From a virus, in the IMG/VR virus record IMGVR_UViG_3300031933_000021, positions 1 to 44,843 of that record: a stretch of 44,843 nucleotides of DNA; one strand, given 5' to 3'. The notes under the pieces were generated by a model. It did not search any database and was not told the DNA's origin. It saw only the letters and a list, made by a program, of their open reading frames with translations. Shown piece after piece: positions 10,238 through 26,189 of the stretch. Position numbers and translations under genes: made by a program. Position 1 is the first letter of the stretch; each line of letters opens with the position of its first letter.

Positions 10238-11098
10238 TTACAATTTAACCTGAGCAATCATATTGTCAGCCATCTTGACATCGTTCTGAGTAGCTTTCAC
10301 GTTATTAGCTACGAAAGGACATGTGTCGTAATGAGCACAGTATTTAGGTGAGCACAGATAGTACTTAGGGTTACCACGTAGAATTAGCTCTGGTGCCACT
10401 TTGTCTTCAGCTACGATGTCTAGAATATCTAGAATGTGGTTGATTAAGAAGCGAGCTTGTTCTACATTAGGGTCTAAGTCGTAGATAGCACCATCAGGTT
10501 TTTGTTTAAGAACAACAGACTGAATATTATTATGCTTAACAGGTACACCATTAGATTCAGCTAAGAAACGGTATATTGACTGTTGAGTCACATATGAAGC
10601 AATAGTAGGTTTACGTTTACTAGTCTTCAAGTCACTGATAGTGTCTTTAGAAATGTAGTCGATAGTACCACCGACTGCTGTAACTAATTTGTGTTGTACG
10701 ATTGGCACTTCGAAATACTTCTCTGTAGCAACAGGAATTTCAGCGAAAGGTGCTATATCATTCAAGAATGCGTTAGTACCCATCTTAATCGTGTTGATAC
10801 TGGTTGTAAGGTTCTCACCTTCATCGAATCGCAAGTCTTGTTTAGCTAGTTCAGCATATTCCTGTACAGCAGCGTCTTGCAACTTAGTTAAGTTTTCATC
10901 ACGCTGACCAGTAGAGATAGCATCTAACCAGTACACTTCAGCAGCTTTATGAATTGAAGTACCAATAGCTGCACGGTTATTAGGAATAGAGCTTATACCT
11001 TCTAAGAAAGTCTTACCCCACTGATAACCACAGTTAAAGAAGCCATCTACTGCTGATGGGCGGATACGGATATCTGTATTTTGTACAATAATTGACAT
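10238..11098 (-). CDS. Cas4/RecB-like PD-(D/E)XK nuclease with Fe-S cysteines
   Basis: A 286-residue nuclease. The catalytic pattern is H50, Asp147 in GGTIDYI, D156-L-K158 and a following Gln motif (YVTQQSIYRF), as in Cas4/AddB/RecB nucleases. Four cysteines fit a 4Fe-4S clamp: Cys23 near the N-terminus and Cys249, Cys254, Cys260 at the C-terminus (LCSPKYCAHYDTC). It probably supplies 5'-3' exonuclease activity for recombination and host DNA breakdown, the role of T7 gp6. There is no CRISPR array nearby, so it is a phage recombination nuclease rather than an adaptation protein. Confidence 0.87.
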   Translation of the reverse strand: MSIIVQNTDIRIRPSAVDGFFNCGYQWGKTFLEGISSIPNNRAAIGTSIHKAAEVYWLDAISTGQRDENLTKLQDAAVQEYAELAKQDLRFDEGENLTTSINTIKMGTNAFLNDIAPFAEIPVATEKYFEVPIVQHKLVTAVGGTIDYISKDTISDLKTSKRKPTIASYVTQQSIYRFLAESNGVPVKHNNIQSVVLKQKPDGAIYDLDPNVEQARFLINHILDILDIVAEDKVAPELILRGNPKYYLCSPKYCAHYDTCPFVANNVKATQNDVKMADNMIAQVKL

Positions 11099-11173: not shown

Positions 11174-11758
11174 TTAATTAAGGCTATCAGATTTAGCATT
11201 CAGAATAGCCTGTAAACGTGCCTCTGGACCAACATAATAAGGTCCTTTATCACCATCGTTTGCTTTAGCTGTAGAGTCTGTCTTTTTAACAGATTTAGAG
11301 TCATTACTGTCACATACAGCTTCTAAAGCTTTTAGACCATCCTCAGACTCTAGACCTAAGAGCTTCATTTCAGTTAGACACGCTGTAATAATAACATGCA
11401 TACCTAGTAGAATAGGAACTTCTGGGTCTGTTCGCATACCATCAATAAATGACGGAACGATATAGATAGGTCGTAAACCAGTACCACGAATAAAGTTGTC
11501 TACGATGTGAGCAGCTAAAGTTAGAACTTCTTCGTCTGATACTTCTTCTTCAGGTAAGTCAAGTTTCCACAAGTTACCTAGAGCTACGTACACTTCATCA
11601 CATAGAGCATCTAGCTTTTTAACTGGTGAATTAGCTTCTAACCACTCTTCGTATTCTTCGTCAAGTAAGTTTAGAGCTAAGTTATGGTCGTATGTACGCT
11701 CGTAGCGTTTTTCATTCCAAGAGCCTACACGTTTATAAATATCCATCAAGTTCAGCAT
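11174..11758 (-). CDS. MazG-like nucleotide pyrophosphohydrolase
   Basis: The start is set at the ATG at 11758, which has TTGGAG seven bases upstream, rather than the TTG at 11764; this gives 194 aa. The N-terminal half has the all-alpha NTP pyrophosphatase pattern: E-E-Y-E-E-W-L-E-A, then D-A-L-C-D-E-V-Y-V-A-L-G. The C-terminal ~100 residues are helical with a low-complexity Ser/Asp/Lys linker. Such enzymes hydrolyse (d)NTPs to (d)NMPs. Next to a dCMP deaminase, a TS-fold enzyme and a carbamoyltransferase, a dCTP-hydrolysing role like T4 gp56 is plausible but not shown by the sequence. Confidence 0.75.
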   Translation of the reverse strand: MLNLMDIYKRVGSWNEKRYERTYDHNLALNLLDEEYEEWLEANSPVKKLDALCDEVYVALGNLWKLDLPEEEVSDEEVLTLAAHIVDNFIRGTGLRPIYIVPSFIDGMRTDPEVPILLGMHVIITACLTEMKLLGLESEDGLKALEAVCDSNDSKSVKKTDSTAKANDGDKGPYYVGPEARLQAILNAKSDSLN

Positions 11759-12167
11759 GGTCAATCTCCAAAAAGTTTATGTAAGGATGCAGTTCTTTAT
11801 GTGACTCGAAACAACTTCTCCAAGTATCAGAACTAGCTATGTTTGGGTTTACACAATAGACTACTTCTAATACACCATAAGCAGCTAAGTGTTTCATGCA
11901 GTCTTTACAAGGAGGCAATCCATAGATATATACTCTTTGTATTTGACCACGTGTTAGACGACTATTTATGATAGCATTCATTTCAGCGTGAATGACTTTC
12001 TCATACTTATCGTCAAAGTTAGTATCATCATAACCTGGTGGGTAACCATTGAATCCGATACCGATATCAGCTCTATTAAAGCCTTGAGCGACCGCACCTA
12101 TCTTAGTGCGGTCTTTAGACATTAATGATGCAGTTTTAGCTATCGCTATGTAGTTTACGTTGCTCAT
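11733..12167 (-). CDS. dCMP deaminase
   Basis: This 144-residue protein has the zinc deaminase signature: H60-A-E62 and P-P-C87-K-D-C90, preceded by a GFNGYPPGYDD loop typical of dCMP deaminases. It converts dCMP to dUMP. It overlaps the MazG start by 26 bases and the carbamoyltransferase end by 32 bases, so the three are one translation unit. In a phage that modifies cytosine, removing dCMP would help keep unmodified cytosine out of new DNA; in an ordinary phage it simply feeds dTTP synthesis. Confidence 0.92.
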   Translation of the reverse strand: MSNVNYIAIAKTASLMSKDRTKIGAVAQGFNRADIGIGFNGYPPGYDDTNFDDKYEKVIHAEMNAIINSRLTRGQIQRVYIYGLPPCKDCMKHLAAYGVLEVVYCVNPNIASSDTWRSCFESHKELHPYINFLEIDHAELDGYL

Positions 12168-13602
12168 AATGAATTCTCGTCATTTCTTCATAGTCATGAT
12201 AATCAAATAAGATTGGTTGACCATGAGCATTAAGCGATGTATTGATACACACACCATACTTTTTAGTGAACTCGTTGTCTACAACTTGAGGACGACAAGT
12301 ATACACTTCTTGACCAGGCTTCTTATGAATAACACCTTCGTAACCTTCAATTGGTCCTAGCCAGTCAGTAGCTACAATCATAAAGTGTTTACAGAAGCCA
12401 AGTTTATTGATGTTACGACAATATTTAGCTGCTACATCATGTCGTAACATAGGAGCCATTGGCATGACGTTAGGTCGACCATTCAGCATGTTAATAACTT
12501 CAGTAGCACGCTGTGTTGGAGCTGCAATAGTTGAAGTATTACCTAATGCTCTAGGACCGAATTCCATTGAGCCACGCATTACGAAAGTCATTTCTACACC
12601 ATTGACTTCCATTAAACGGTCATATTTGTTTGTGAATCGCTTACCCCAGAATAAGTTATCGTACTTAACATCAACAAAGCCTAGACCACAACCTTGGTCA
12701 CCTGCTAGTGGATGGAATTCAATAACTGATACTTCTTCGGCGTATTTGTTAAGAATCACATTATTTAGCTTAACATTGTAGAACACACCGCCTGAGAACT
12801 GCATCACACGATGCTCTGGCTTTTTATAGTCTTCTAATAAACGTAGAACTAATTTTTCAGTGACTGCTTGAACTAAATATGCGACTGCATACTGGTCATA
12901 TGCAACTTCAGCACAGTATTTATCAAGCATGTGGTTAACAATCTGACGATTCTGAGCACATTGCTGACTATACACTTGGTCTGTGTGGTTATCGAAGTTA
13001 TCGTAGTAGAAGTCAACAATATCTTCGACATGTTTATCCATAGCTTCACGATGTTCGTCAAGAACATGAGCTTCCATACCAAGTAACTTGTACTCATCTT
13101 GGTTTTCTTTCATTCCTAGATAAGCAGTAGCATACTGGTACCAAAGACCGATAGACAAGAAATACATACGGTCTACTAACTTACCATCTTCGTAGATAGA
13201 CACTGTTTCACAGTCAGTACCAAACCCATCAGCTACCATAGTAAGACCTGACATAGTACGAGAGAAGTTCCACACAGAATGAGCGTGAGCGTCGTGGTGT
13301 GTGAAGTTCTTGCTGATAGTACGCCATTCAGCTTTTTTGAATCGTGTCTTTAGATGTTGCGGGTTGAAGTATTTAGACTCTTCGAATTTCCACAAAGAGT
13401 TAAACCAGTGTGAGATACATACTTCTGTAACTTCATACTTAGCTTCAGGATGATGCTTAAGAATTTCTTCAATAGCAAGTTTAGGGTAAGAGCTGTCAGC
13501 TTTTACTTTAGATAGACGTTCTTCTTCATAACCACAAAGAACATGAGTTTTATCAACTAAGATAGCTGAAGAGTTATGACCGAGAGTTAGTAGAAGTTTC
13601 AT
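12136..13602 (-). CDS. NodU/TobZ-type carbamoyltransferase, candidate DNA base carbamoyltransferase
   Basis: A 488-residue full-length carbamoyltransferase. The N-terminal Kae1/YrdC-like part shows LGHNSSAIL (7-15), EERLSKVK (27-34), the metal-binding HHDAHA (102-107) and DGFG (125-128). The middle has SGGVFYNVKLNN and FHPLAGDQGCGLG. The C-terminal domain has the family's hallmark FGPRALGNTS (348-357). NodU enzymes carbamoylate hydroxyl groups using carbamoyl phosphate and ATP. Related virome-encoded enzymes have been reported to convert 5-hydroxymethylcytosine to 5-carbamoyloxymethylcytosine. A TS-fold enzyme lies just upstream and a dCMP deaminase just downstream. DNA as the substrate is an inference from this context. 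Confidence 0.88.
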   Translation of the reverse strand: MKLLLTLGHNSSAILVDKTHVLCGYEEERLSKVKADSSYPKLAIEEILKHHPEAKYEVTEVCISHWFNSLWKFEESKYFNPQHLKTRFKKAEWRTISKNFTHHDAHAHSVWNFSRTMSGLTMVADGFGTDCETVSIYEDGKLVDRMYFLSIGLWYQYATAYLGMKENQDEYKLLGMEAHVLDEHREAMDKHVEDIVDFYYDNFDNHTDQVYSQQCAQNRQIVNHMLDKYCAEVAYDQYAVAYLVQAVTEKLVLRLLEDYKKPEHRVMQFSGGVFYNVKLNNVILNKYAEEVSVIEFHPLAGDQGCGLGFVDVKYDNLFWGKRFTNKYDRLMEVNGVEMTFVMRGSMEFGPRALGNTSTIAAPTQRATEVINMLNGRPNVMPMAPMLRHDVAAKYCRNINKLGFCKHFMIVATDWLGPIEGYEGVIHKKPGQEVYTCRPQVVDNEFTKKYGVCINTSLNAHGQPILFDYHDYEEMTRIHYEQRKLHSDS

Positions 13603-13931
13603 AGTTTCACCATTACAGAGAAAGCAAGTTCAGAAGCAGGTTTAAATCCGAGCTCTTTGTAGAAATCTTCAAGAGCTTTGTTACAGAATAAAATGGTACG
13701 AGTGTCTTTAGTTAGACGTTCAAGAACTTTCTTACCGATACCTTTACCGCGATGTTCTTTAAGAACATAGATAGTATCTAAGTATGTTGTGTTACCATCA
13801 GTAACAGTAATAACGATACAACAACCTTCTACTACTTCAACAGTAGCGTCAGCGTATTTACGCTTAAACTCACCGTAAGTATCAGGAATCCAGCTACAGT
13901 CTTTAAGACCATCATCGTAAAACATTCTCAT
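13599..13931 (-). CDS. GNAT-family N-acetyltransferase
   Basis: This 110-residue protein has the GNAT acetyl-CoA-binding signature: a beta-strand LDTIYVLKEH followed by R61-G-K-G-I-G66 and an amphipathic helix, then the CNKALEDFYKELGF element of motif B. It has GGAG eight bases upstream of the ATG and overlaps the carbamoyltransferase start by four bases. The substrate is unknown. It could acetylate host proteins, or acylate an aminated base precursor given its position as first gene of the nucleotide-modification operon. Confidence 0.8.
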   Translation of the reverse strand: MRMFYDDGLKDCSWIPDTYGEFKRKYADATVEVVEGCCIVITVTDGNTTYLDTIYVLKEHRGKGIGKKVLERLTKDTRTILFCNKALEDFYKELGFKPASELAFSVMVKL

Positions 13932-13948
13932 GCTTGAGTCTCCTCTTT

Positions 13949-13981
13949 AATCTTGGAACCATTATACACGGTCCCAAGATT
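13949..13981. promoter_or_regulatory. Inverted repeat overlapping the modification-operon promoter, candidate operator
   Basis: Two 12-base arms (AATCTTGGAACC and GGTCCCAAGATT, one mismatch) flank a 9-base centre that contains the -10 box. An inverted repeat placed across the -10 and spacer fits an operator for a dimeric repressor. It could also act as a weak terminator hairpin for the upstream thymidylate-synthase transcript, since TTAAAG follows on the minus strand. Confidence 0.5.
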
Positions 13982-13988
13982 TTGTAAA
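13961..13988 (-). promoter_or_regulatory. Sigma70 promoter of the GNAT-carbamoyltransferase-deaminase-MazG operon
   Basis: The minus strand shows TTTACA (13988-13983), a 16-base spacer and a perfect TATAAT (13966-13961), 30 bases before the GNAT start. It gives the modification operon its own transcript, independent of the upstream DNA polymerase operon. Confidence 0.75.
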
Positions 13989-13996
13989 CAATTTAA

Positions 13997-14662
13997 TTAA
14001 AGTGAATCGAAGATACCAAAGTGACGTTCATACAAGTGTAGACTACATGCATGCCAGTGTACTTTACCGTATTCTACACCGAGCTCGTCAGCTAATTGAC
14101 GTAAGACAAGAATTTGCCAAGCCAAATCAGCACCGACAACACCAAATCGGAGGTCACTACTACGCATGCTAACAAAAGCATGAAGCTTACCGTTCCGTAC
14201 TGTGTATGATACATACATAGTGCAAACGAAATCCTCTCCACCAGTATAATGGATATGATTAGGGCAATAAACCATAATAGCACGTCGAGAAGCTGGGTCA
14301 TTCTTTAGTTCCTTAAGCACGTTATCGTACTGGTTACAGTTTTGTGGACTGTGAACTAAGAATCCATAGTTACTATTTACGAATCCTTTCTCGTTAGCAA
14401 TAGCAGACCACATACTAGCAAAATTGCTAATGAAATCAGCTTTAGTAGAAGCAGAGTCGTACCACTTAAACTCTGCGTCGACGTAAGATTCGCTAGTAGA
14501 AAAACCAGGCACTGTGATAATACCAGATTCGTTAGCATCAAACTCCATTGTAGCATTTAAAAGCTCCACAGTTTTGAATCCACGAACATGTACGAACTCA
14601 CCAGCATCGTGAAGTTCTTTGAATTTATTTAGTTGATTAAGAATTACTTGGTTGTTGTTCAT
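13997..14662 (-). CDS. Thymidylate synthase-fold enzyme, probable dCMP hydroxymethylase
   Basis: The start is placed at the ATG at 14662 (221 aa), because an upstream Met at 14701 would overlap the previous gene by 65 bases. TS-fold residues are clear: phosphate-binding Arg126-Arg127 (SRRAIM), nucleophile Cys147 (FVCTMYV), R167-S168-S-D170 and His209-x-Tyr211 (LHLYERH). At the position that is Asn in dTMP synthases (E. coli Asn177) this protein has Asp179 (GADLAWQ). Asp there is the known feature of dCMP hydroxymethylases such as T4 gp42. The neighbouring carbamoyltransferase and dCMP deaminase support hydroxymethylation of dCMP. dUMP as substrate cannot be excluded without alignment or assay. 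Confidence 0.83.
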   Translation of the reverse strand: MNNNQVILNQLNKFKELHDAGEFVHVRGFKTVELLNATMEFDANESGIITVPGFSTSESYVDAEFKWYDSASTKADFISNFASMWSAIANEKGFVNSNYGFLVHSPQNCNQYDNVLKELKNDPASRRAIMVYCPNHIHYTGGEDFVCTMYVSYTVRNGKLHAFVSMRSSDLRFGVVGADLAWQILVLRQLADELGVEYGKVHWHACSLHLYERHFGIFDSL

Positions 14663-14957
14663 TTCTTTCTCGTTGCTCCATATGAAGTAAGAACATTGCA
14701 TTGCATGCGATACTAGCTAAGTGAGACTCTTGCATCTCTTCGTCTAAGTACTCTCCAGACAGATATGCTTCTAAATGACGAAGAAGTGCATCTTTGTACA
14801 TGTCTTTATCTTCACACTTCTTCCAGTTATGAGCATCATACTTCTTAGCTCCCTGAGTTAGTATGCTTGCCATAGCTCGCTTAAACTCAGGCTCAATTAG
14901 AGTGTAACGAAGTTTGTCTACACTTTGAGACTCTTTAACAAATGGTTTCTCAGCCAT
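14637..14957 (-). CDS. DUF5664-type protein (dATP/dGTP diphosphohydrolase-like)
   Basis: This 106-residue protein has the phage family pattern Y-D-A-H-N-W, then ALLRHLEAYLSGE, D/E residues, and HLASIACNAMFLL. It is often annotated as a dATP/dGTP diphosphohydrolase domain and is remotely related to all-alpha NTP pyrophosphatases. It overlaps the polymerase stop by eight bases and the following TS-fold gene's start by 26 bases. It may adjust dNTP pools. The enzymatic activity is not certain from sequence. Confidence 0.7.
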   Translation of the reverse strand: MAEKPFVKESQSVDKLRYTLIEPEFKRAMASILTQGAKKYDAHNWKKCEDKDMYKDALLRHLEAYLSGEYLDEEMQESHLASIACNAMFLLHMEQRERNEQQPSNS

Positions 14958-16758
14958 TCAAGACTTCCTCCAGCATCGCCATGCCTTCTAATTCATATTG
15001 ATATAGTTTGAATCCATCGTCTGAATCGATTGACTTCCAGTCGTATCCCACGCGCACATCAACCGGCATTGGGAGGTCTTTAATCTTAAAGATTTTAGAC
15101 ATTTCAAACCACGCTTTTTGCATCTCTTGTGCCATGACATGAGCTGCTTCTTTGTACACTTCTTCATCATTACCGTAGTAAGCAATAATGTATGAGTCAT
15201 GCACGAAGTTAACTAAACACATCTCGTCATCACGAAGATTATACTTAGTTCTTAGTTCTGCTACACGTTCGTTAAGACGAATGAATGCTAATTTAGCTAC
15301 GTCAGCACCGGCACCTTGGTTTTCGATGTTCAAGAAGTCGGTCATCATCTTAGCTTTATAGTAACGACCTAATGGAGTATGTCCAAGCTTACCTTTCTGC
15401 CACTTAGAAATACCTTCTTGCTGCCACTTAAAGATTTCACGCCATAGCGTACGCCAACCTTTACGAATATCAGAAGCTTCAGAGTATTCCAGCTTAACAG
15501 ATGCGATTTGCATCATGAAGCCAATAAACATCTCGATACCACCGCCATAAAGCAGACCGAAGTTTGCACCCTTAGAGTAAAGACGAGCGAGAGGTTTAGT
15601 TTCTTTCCAGTCTTTACCGAATAACATATCAGCTGTGTATGAGTGTAAGTCTGCACCTGCTCGGAACAGTTCTTCCATCTTAGATACACCTAAGATAGCA
15701 CAAATTGTACGAAGCTCTAGCTGAGCGTAGTCAGCAAAGATTAGTACACCGTCACCTTCTTCCATACCGAACAAGCCTTTAAGAGCTCGAGGTATTTGTT
15801 GTAAGTTTTCATCATCTGAAGTAAGACGACCAGAACGAGCAGAAGGCTTGAGCTTACCATACAACTTCTCACCTTTCTCTTCGTACTTATAGATAGTAGA
15901 TAGACGCTTAGTAAGAGTGCGAACAGTACGAATATTCTTAGCATACTCGCAACCATCCATCTCGCGTTCTGATAGGTAAGCATCATCAGAAGCATTAGAG
16001 TTTAGTAATTCACGTACTTGTTTGTAAGAGTTAACGTTTATTAGACCTTTATCAGTCTTCATTAACCAACGTGTTTCTTTACCTACAGGCGTCAATTCAG
16101 CAAGCTCACCTAGTTTCTTAATGGTCTCTTCTTTCTTAGCTTGTAAGTTAGTTTCGTGAATAGGTACACCATTCCACTGAACTTCTAGACAAGTACGAAG
16201 AGTCTTTTTATCAAGAATATACGCAGGCATTGTAAATGCTTTAGATACTGCTTCGAATAATTTAGGAAGACAGTAAACGTCTATAGAAGCGTATAGTTTC
16301 TGCTCTTTGTCTAATTGAGGTTTATTCCATTTAGATTTTTGCAGAGTTTTCTTATCTAAGTTAGCTTCAACGTATGGGTCAAAACCTAGTACTCGAGCCA
16401 TACAGTCGTCAAGAGTATATGTATCGTACATAGGCATAGCTAAACGTGCAGCTAAGAAAGTATCTTCGAATTTTTCTGGTACCCAAACTAACTGAGATTG
16501 AGCTTGACTTGTTGTGATATCGTAATGAGCATTGTGACAGTAGAATGTCATACGAGATAACAAACTGATTAGAGCTAAATCATTAGGATATTCAACTAAG
16601 ATAACTTGGTCCCAATGAGGTTGGTAAAACTGTGCTAAACGAATTTTACCGTAAAAACCGATTGTTTCTGTATCGTATGCCATAGGAGTAGAGAAATCTG
16701 TTAGACTCTCTACTTCCTGTAATGAGCCCATACGATAGATAGTATGGTCTAAAATCAT
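14950..16758 (-). CDS. Family A DNA polymerase with 3'-5' exonuclease
   Basis: This 602-residue T7/Pol I-type polymerase has all three exonuclease motifs: D29-x-E31, N76-x3-D80 and Y156-x3-D160. Polymerase motif A is D343-YAQLELR. Motif B is K396-x3-F400-x3-Y404-G, with Phe at the E. coli 762-equivalent position. Motif C is H520-D521-S522, where most family members have His-Asp-Glu. Phe at the 762 position is mostly found in virulent phages. This is the replicative polymerase. No separate thioredoxin-binding insertion is evident. Start ATG overlaps the upstream gene's stop by four bases. Confidence 0.95.
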   Translation of the reverse strand: MILDHTIYRMGSLQEVESLTDFSTPMAYDTETIGFYGKIRLAQFYQPHWDQVILVEYPNDLALISLLSRMTFYCHNAHYDITTSQAQSQLVWVPEKFEDTFLAARLAMPMYDTYTLDDCMARVLGFDPYVEANLDKKTLQKSKWNKPQLDKEQKLYASIDVYCLPKLFEAVSKAFTMPAYILDKKTLRTCLEVQWNGVPIHETNLQAKKEETIKKLGELAELTPVGKETRWLMKTDKGLINVNSYKQVRELLNSNASDDAYLSEREMDGCEYAKNIRTVRTLTKRLSTIYKYEEKGEKLYGKLKPSARSGRLTSDDENLQQIPRALKGLFGMEEGDGVLIFADYAQLELRTICAILGVSKMEELFRAGADLHSYTADMLFGKDWKETKPLARLYSKGANFGLLYGGGIEMFIGFMMQIASVKLEYSEASDIRKGWRTLWREIFKWQQEGISKWQKGKLGHTPLGRYYKAKMMTDFLNIENQGAGADVAKLAFIRLNERVAELRTKYNLRDDEMCLVNFVHDSYIIAYYGNDEEVYKEAAHVMAQEMQKAWFEMSKIFKIKDLPMPVDVRVGYDWKSIDSDDGFKLYQYELEGMAMLEEVLNG

Positions 16759-25306: not shown

Positions 25307-25740
25307 AGTAAGTTTCTCTCTTTTAGTTGCTGTGTAAACGACTCTTTAATAAGAGCATTGTTAAAAGTAGGTTTATATATTGTGTTAAGTGTTTCAAAAG
25401 ATAAGTCTTCGAACACTCTAACTAACTTAGAAGTTTTGACAGGTTTACCTTGCTCATCTTCTATATAAATAGCGTTACCAATATAACATGCATTATAACA
25501 TAAAATTTCTGGTTTAACATCGTTGTTTGTAAGTATAACCTCGCGCTTTTCTATCGCTTCTATAGCTGTAGCTTTCTTAAACAACTCTCTATCTGAGAAA
25601 GACATACTCAAATGAGGTGTGCAAGTAAAGACAGTAGCTTCATTCAAAGACACTTCTCTGAACGTATTACCTGCGAAAGTATTCTCATGTACTAACTTAA
25701 GATACTTACCATTATTAGTTAACTTTACGAAACCTTTCAT
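25303..25740 (-). CDS. Early protein of unknown function
   Basis: This 145-residue protein has beta-rich segments (YLKLVHENTFAGNTFREVSL, ATVFTCTPHLSMSF) and a mid-region CYNACYIGNAIYIEDEQG. No family is recognised. It is coupled by 4-base overlaps to the DNA glycosylase gene upstream and the paralogue gene downstream, so the three are co-translated in the early transcript. Confidence 0.6.
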   Translation of the reverse strand: MKGFVKLTNNGKYLKLVHENTFAGNTFREVSLNEATVFTCTPHLSMSFSDRELFKKATAIEAIEKREVILTNNDVKPEILCYNACYIGNAIYIEDEQGKPVKTSKLVRVFEDLSFETLNTIYKPTFNNALIKESFTQQLKERNLL

Positions 25741-26189
25741 GAGTATATTACCTTAGCTAAAATGCGCTTGTAGTGGTCTGGGTGAGCTGGTTTACCGTTA
25801 TACGTGTAAATGCTCGGGTTCTCGCGATAACGCTCCATGAGACGTATCAGGTTAAGCGACATCGCGTCTTTATCAGGCTGCCAGTCATAGTTAAGTACAC
25901 TGAGACTATGCAACTGATATTCTTTGTGAGTCAAGTTAGGCCATAAACCTCGACGTAAGCATTCCTGATATAGCGTCTCACACTGCTTCTGTAAGAACAG
26001 GCCTTTATCATAAAAGTACTTCACGTGGCCTGTACCTAACGTATAAGCATGAGGACACTCACATGGCTCGAGAATACGAGCGAGGCTTGACACTCGTGTT
26101 ACCTCACGATAAGCTGCGAACAGATGCTGGTCGAGCAAATCAGAGTGCTTGAACAGACCATTGTCAGTCGTTGTATTGATTCTTGTCAT
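25737..26189 (-). CDS. denV: Pyrimidine dimer DNA glycosylase (T4 endonuclease V-like)
   Basis: This 150-residue protein aligns by eye over its full length with T4 DenV (138 aa). MTRIN is at the N-terminus, with Thr2 as the residue that supplies the alpha-amino nucleophile after Met removal. DQHLFAAYREVTRV includes Glu29, equivalent to catalytic Glu23, then GTGHVKYFYDKGLFL, ECLRRGLWPN and a C-terminal WQPDKDAMSLNLIRLMERYRE segment. It removes UV-induced cyclobutane pyrimidine dimers by base-flipping and beta-elimination. It is the first gene of a small early operon, useful for a phage exposed to sunlight. N-terminal extension of six residues relative to T4 is in the loop before DQHL. Confidence 0.9.
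   Translation of the reverse strand: MTRINTTTDNGLFKHSDLLDQHLFAAYREVTRVSSLARILEPCECPHAYTLGTGHVKYFYDKGLFLQKQCETLYQECLRRGLWPNLTHKEYQLHSLSVLNYDWQPDKDAMSLNLIRLMERYRENPSIYTYNGKPAHPDHYKRILAKVIYS

Follow-up and report, generated by a model that had tools for sequence, protein, structure and literature searches.

Gene content of the locus

The window analyzed here is the entire IMG/VR virus record IMGVR_UViG_3300031933_000021 (44,843 nt), in which an earlier note had claimed that five contiguous genes at positions 11174-14662 form a candidate cassette for DNA cytosine hypermodification. All five lie where that note placed them, tightly packed on the minus strand, and a MazZ-like gene that it had missed sits directly upstream of the gene for an enzyme of the thymidylate synthase (TS) fold. 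As judged from sequence comparison, it is highly probable that the locus is a viral cassette for the carbamoylation of 5-hydroxymethylcytosine (5hmC). The features are, in the order in which they are read:

14637-14957, minus: MazZ-type dATP/dGTP-diphosphohydrolase-like protein (PF18909, dGTP_diPhyd_N, 101 bits)
13997-14662 (frame open to 14701), minus: predicted T4-type deoxycytidine monophosphate (dCMP) hydroxymethylase, TS fold, 221 residues (Thymidylat_synt, 69.8 bits)
13961-13988, minus: sigma-70-like promoter TTTACA-16-TATAAT (11 of 12 consensus letters), preceding GNAT-carbamoyltransferase
13599-13931, minus: small GNAT acetyltransferase, 110 residues (PF13508, 46 bits)
12136-13602, minus: NodU/TobZ-type carbamoyltransferase, 488 residues (PF02543 and PF16861, Carbam_trans_N/C, 67.9 and 63.4 bits; phrog_1601)
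11733-12167, minus: dCMP deaminase (PF00383, 46.6 bits; HAE and PCxxC zinc motifs in the translation)
11174-11746 (frame open to 11764), minus: MazG/NTP-PPase-type pyrophosphohydrolase (phrog_671, E = 1e-15)

The TS-fold protein carries the residues of a dCMP hydroxymethylase

The TS-fold protein is predicted to be a dCMP hydroxymethylase of the T4 type. Its start at 14662, as chosen in the earlier note, is backed by comparison with L007 and L008, two loci that carry the same MazZ-TS-GNAT-carbamoyltransferase block. With this start, the aspartate that the note had placed at the dCMP-selecting site is literally residue 179 and aligns with D179 of T4 (N177 in Escherichia coli TS), and the nucleophile is C147. 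Asparagine at the selecting position, which the note had named as evidence against its reading, was looked for in the TS-fold alignment and was not found. In its specificity and hydroxymethylation residues alike, the protein groups with T4 gp42 and not with thymidylate (dTMP) synthases, and its closest PDB match is gp42 (1b49, E = 1.3e-32), whereas the top-scoring dTMP synthase reaches 6.7e-12.

Park et al. (2019; PMC6400193) defined a hydroxymethylation signature consisting of Asp or Glu at position -3 from the catalytic Cys and Ser or Thr at -2 from a Tyr. Both parts are present in the window protein (D144/C147 and S97-x-Y99), and its pattern of ESYRR, D..CT and D is that of T4, including the Thr after the Cys; E. 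coli TS has at those sites a non-Ser residue, L..CH and N. Positions 147 and 177 were reported to distinguish modified from unmodified contigs (Yang et al. 2021; PMC8670742), and the window protein shows the T4-like state at both. No other TS-family gene and no ThyX were found in the record, leaving this gene as its sole TS-family member, and dTMP must therefore come from the host.

The carbamoyltransferase belongs to a DNA-modifying clade

Yang et al. (2021; PMC8670742) expressed a virome carbamoyltransferase and showed that it converts 5hmC to 5-carbamoyloxymethylcytosine (5cmC). The window carbamoyltransferase aligns with this validated enzyme from end to end (30% identity, E = 1e-58). In the phylogeny that the earlier note had proposed as a check, here comprising 51 proteins, a branch with 100/100 support splits four cyanophage and pelagiphage enzymes from a DNA-type clade of 47 rows. 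The window, L007 and L008 enzymes group together (100/100), and the trio falls in an 18-row group that also contains the validated enzyme (92/97), placing the window enzyme within the clade of the latter; it is thus a predicted 5hmC carbamoyltransferase of the DNA-modifying clade.

Residues H102, H106, D125 and D302 are identical across all 51 aligned sequences, and, as in TobZ, they probably form the metal site. Thr356, the third residue after the Leu of the RAL motif, is Thr in 47/47 members of the DNA-type clade and Arg in 4/4 outsiders, and GdmN and novobiocin-type carbamoyltransferases also have Arg there in our alignments. By our own numbering, this position probably corresponds to R423 of TobZ, one of three sites flagged by Yang et al.

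Linkage of the two genes across viruses

Our set of distinct DNA-type carbamoyltransferase loci numbers 49, among them the window and the cultured phages Effie, MD-2021a, Xp15 and BF486P2. An Asp-type TS lies no more than 3.5 kb away on the same strand in 46 of them (395 bp from the carbamoyltransferase in the window), and in the remaining three the locus is interrupted by the end of the contig; near the cyanophage and pelagiphage carbamoyltransferases, the count is zero of four loci. Yang et al. (2021; PMC8670742) name the same domains in their network of domains that co-occur on contigs with modified cytosine. Because of the TS linkage and this network, membership of the window in the published system is well founded. 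Both the gene set and the chemistry were already published in 2021 (Yang et al., eLife 10:e70021, PMC8670742), in the only study that our literature search on 5hmC carbamoylation found.

In L006, L012, L015, L017, L029, L030 and L033-L035, a further TS-fold paralog, different in type (LPYD context), follows the carbamoyltransferase by about 0.6 kb, and in most of those loci it stands beside the hydroxymethylase-type TS.

The cassette occupies a swapped locus in a VPMS1-like genome

Both contig ends (44837-44843 and 1-7) read ATGTATG (7 bases), and joining them on this repeat restores a reading frame exactly as in gene MS_022 of Vibrio phage VPMS1; the record is therefore probably a complete permuted genome, though classed as linear. 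The genome is that of a VPMS1/Kafunavirus-like podovirus, with identities to VPMS1 of 91% for the capsid, 90% for the portal and 85% for the tail protein. Edwardsiella phage KF-1, Dickeya phage Amaethon, Pseudoalteromonas phage PH1 and two spring-water genomes are more distant than VPMS1. A DenV-like pyrimidine dimer DNA glycosylase (PF03013) is encoded at 25737-26189 of the window, and VPMS1 has one too.

The genes flanking the cassette block on either side have VPMS1 orthologs, and two of them mark its boundaries:

14950-16758, minus: family A DNA polymerase (PF00476; 44% identity to VPMS1), upstream boundary
10238-11098, minus: PD-(D/E)XK exonuclease (PF12705; 50% identity to VPMS1), downstream boundary

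In the VPMS1/KF-1-type relatives, the equivalent slot beside PolA holds a single, different TS, close to MazG and in some cases to a deaminase, and in the window it is filled by MazZ-TS-GNAT-carbamoyltransferase-deaminase. Gene-by-gene comparison found no VPMS1 orthologs of the window's deaminase, carbamoyltransferase, GNAT, TS or MazZ, and the block is not present at the same locus of VPMS1 or KF-1. Its MazZ-TS-GNAT-carbamoyltransferase part is 39-55% identical to that of L007 and L008, exceeding the 22-38% of the polymerase, primase and helicases, which suggests, without proving, that these genes were exchanged as one block.

The TS genes that occupy the slot in Kafunavirus-like phages (L047 28150-28962; L048 16265-17062; L104-L107) encode the selecting Asp together with V/L-x-Y, Leu at -3 and His after the Cys. 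According to work cited by Yang et al. (PMC8670742), an Asn-to-Asp change in TS gives a dCMP methylase. Since they combine Asp with TS-like catalytic residues, we predict that these proteins are dCMP methylases and that the phages carrying them are possible 5-methylcytosine (5mC) phages. The position of the cassette in a VPMS1/Kafunavirus-like backbone, where it displaces the predicted dCMP methylase of the relatives, is new, and suggests that one cytosine chemistry can be swapped for another at a fixed locus among phages whose capsids hardly differ.

Other genes and signals of the locus

The MazG-like gene, whose match to the PRA-PH/MazG-like Pfam family (PF01503) reaches 21.1 bits, just below the cut-off of 21.3, is 48% identical to its VPMS1 counterpart, and KF-1 also has one. 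Sequence relationships thus mark it as an inherited backbone gene; its proposed role as a specific component of the cassette fails, since both phages carry it without the cassette. The MazZ-like gene keeps company with TS, GNAT and carbamoyltransferase in L007 and L008 (47-48% identity), and its homologous domain sits within KF-1 gp27 (L048 17611-18219), where a dCMP deaminase and a MazZ-like domain are fused that are separate genes in the window. A Z-genome (2-aminoadenine) reading of the MazZ-like gene was rejected, with PurZ (PF00709) absent from the window. The TTTACA-16-TATAAT promoter is the sole exact match within the window, and its -10 element is contained in a 14-pair hairpin region (13951-13979, z = -4.1); together, promoter and hairpin (13951-13988, minus strand) possibly form an operator or RNA switch for GNAT-carbamoyltransferase.

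GATC depletion follows the phage lineage

The loss of GATC that the earlier note had coupled with the cassette is real: the window has none in 44,843 bases versus about 130 expected from trinucleotides, and other palindromic tetramers are near expectation. Its tie to the cassette did not hold. Without a carbamoyltransferase, VPMS1 has 3 sites against 84 expected and KF-1 has 41 against 79, and with one, Effie (102 of 126) and Xp15 (193 of 202) are near-normal. Loss of GATC was therefore rejected as a mark of the cassette; it is a lineage trait, because VPMS1 shares it, and is neutral on the cassette. Counterselection by Dam/MutHLS mismatch repair is a published cause of GATC loss in enterobacteriophages (PMC5014478), and restriction at GATC is a possible cause.

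Proposed pathway and alternative explanations

Taken together, the TS residues and the clade of the carbamoyltransferase support the cytosine hypermodification reading of the earlier note, and we infer that the cytosines of the viral DNA are very probably replaced by 5hmC and then capped with carbamoyl. Sequence and residue tests assigned both enzymes, showed that their genes are linked and that the block was swapped into a VPMS1-like backbone, and turned up no recognizable kinase; the two reactions, formation of hydroxymethyl-dCMP (hm-dCMP) and carbamoylation of 5hmC, would be those of published work. In the proposed pathway, hm-dCMP would be phosphorylated by a presumed host kinase, and the family A polymerase of the phage would take the resulting triphosphate (hm-dCTP) as a substrate. 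5hmC, either in single-stranded DNA or as hm-dCTP, would be converted to 5cmC by the carbamoyltransferase at the expense of carbamoyl phosphate and ATP. The dCMP deaminase and the two pyrophosphohydrolases may shape the deoxynucleotide pools, and the end effect would be phage DNA shielded from host nucleases.

Several observations weigh against this pathway. Identity to the validated carbamoyltransferase is only 30%, and support for the group that unites it with the window enzyme is moderate (92/97). The window enzyme has Gly354 where the validated enzyme and most of the clade have Cys, with several other clade members likewise non-Cys at this position. Lastly, the window contains no hm-dCMP kinase, though related cassettes carry a kinase-like gene.

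The GNAT gene bears on an alternative in which 5hmC is made and the final base differs, with GNAT or another gene acting on the 5hmC or 5cmC product or on a precursor. The gene is located between TS and carbamoyltransferase, and its stop overlaps the carbamoyltransferase start by 4 nt in all three carriers (the window, L007 and L008). It was not found beyond these genomes in IMG/VR viral or bacterial genome collections, and its alignment preserves the RGKG(I/L) acetyl-CoA loop. However, L108, a 4-kb contig from a metagenome-assembled genome of the same clade whose carbamoyltransferase is 63% identical to that of L007, has TS abutting carbamoyltransferase with no GNAT between them, and GNAT is therefore not essential to the chemistry. 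GNATs often target proteins, and the model of this one (mean predicted local distance difference test score, pLDDT, 75) matches generic GNATs only and also resembles the anti-CRISPR acetyltransferase AcrVA5. Neither 5hmC nor 5cmC offers an aliphatic amine. We consider a different final base unlikely; GNAT may serve a further tailoring step, act on a host or defence target, or have a role in regulation.

The lack of a kinase raises a second alternative, a broken or leaky pathway in which hm-dCMP stays unactivated and modified cytosine is scarce in the genome or missing from it. By annotation, T4 phosphorylates hm-dCMP with gp1; the gp1 family (PF21448), detected in the T4 control, has no member in the window or in 27 relatives, and the thymidylate-kinase family (PF02223) has no match in the record. 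When the neighbors of the carbamoyltransferase/TS pair were clustered across the 49 loci, three families of small Walker-A proteins emerged, and in 42 loci a member of one of them adjoins the pair (for example L056 8080-8610, L006 13818-14471, L014 6242-6730 and their relatives). Two further loci, L109 and L110, also carry a P-loop kinase-like gene, for a total of 44 other loci. By profile, the three families match thymidylate kinases and YorR weakly but consistently, and we regard them as candidate hm-dCMP kinases. Almost all such cassettes thus carry a candidate for this phosphorylation step, which the 2021 paper does not take up; its main text mentions neither kinase nor acetyltransferase (PMC8670742). 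Four of the seven loci without a kinase-like gene are truncated, which leaves the window, L007 and L008, where profiles of the three families and a Walker-A scan found none across the whole contigs. As all other untruncated loci carry one, the absence is specific to this clade, and the missing hm-dCMP kinase that the earlier note had pointed out is a real gap. GNAT as a stand-in was weakened as an idea by L108, in which neither GNAT nor a kinase-like gene is seen.

This gap in a complete-looking record, repeated in L007 and L008, favors a broken pathway, yet the cassette genes are intact and active-site residues are conserved in divergent members of the clade, which argues for purifying selection. 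A kinase is also missing from those backbone relatives that have a predicted dCMP methylase, so a host kinase may suffice; host CMP kinase is presumably the simplest substitute. A broken pathway is accordingly very improbable. Equally improbable is a carbamoyltransferase that is auxiliary and has a small molecule or a sugar of the cell surface as its target, while TS merely supplies modified or ordinary pyrimidines: glycans or antibiotics are indeed the substrates of most NodU/TobZ-family enzymes, and in cyanophages genes of this kind occur with no TS, but the complete linkage to an Asp TS, the clade separation, the diagnostic Thr and a published pairing found only on cytosine-modified contigs speak against it.

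Carbamoylation of 5hmC remains our preferred explanation, in a new variant without a kinase and with a GNAT limited to the window, L007 and L008. It is conceivable, though on balance doubtful, that this clade represents a distinct version of the system, in which the kinase was dropped, GNAT was recruited, the block replaced a resident 5mC-type system, and either the final base or the way in which the triphosphate is reached differs from that demonstrated. The metavirome chemistry of 2021 can now be assigned to a recognizable phage group with a cultured sister, VPMS1, which makes it testable, and the cultured phages Xp15, Effie and BF486P2, predicted to contain 5cmC, are open to direct test.

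Comparison with known systems

The window shares with the network of Yang et al. (2021; PMC8670742) the joint presence of both carbamoyltransferase domains (N and C), an Asp TS, a PRA-PH pyrophosphohydrolase and a dCMP deaminase, and differs in its VPMS1-like podovirus context, the adjoining GNAT and MazZ genes, and the lack of a P-loop kinase-like gene. In common with T4, it has gp42-type catalytic and selecting residues, and hydroxymethylcytosine would be made first and its hydroxyl capped afterwards. In contrast to the gp42, gp1 kinase (for deoxynucleoside monophosphates) and glucosyltransferases of T4, which add a glucose cap, the window has a predicted carbamoyl cap, no gp1 and a family A polymerase.

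With VPMS1, KF-1, Amaethon and PH1 the window shares the genome plan, the slot between PolA and the PD-(D/E)XK nuclease, and MazG; these phages have no carbamoyltransferase or GNAT, and their TS, apart from the selecting Asp, is TS-like, as predicted for a dCMP methylase. Xanthomonas phage Xp15, Acinetobacter phage Effie and Bacteroides phage BF486P2 are cultured phages that combine, like the window, a carbamoyltransferase with an Asp, hydroxymethylase-type TS, whereas they possess a kinase-like gene, lack the window's GNAT, and have carbamoyltransferases of 32-36% identity.

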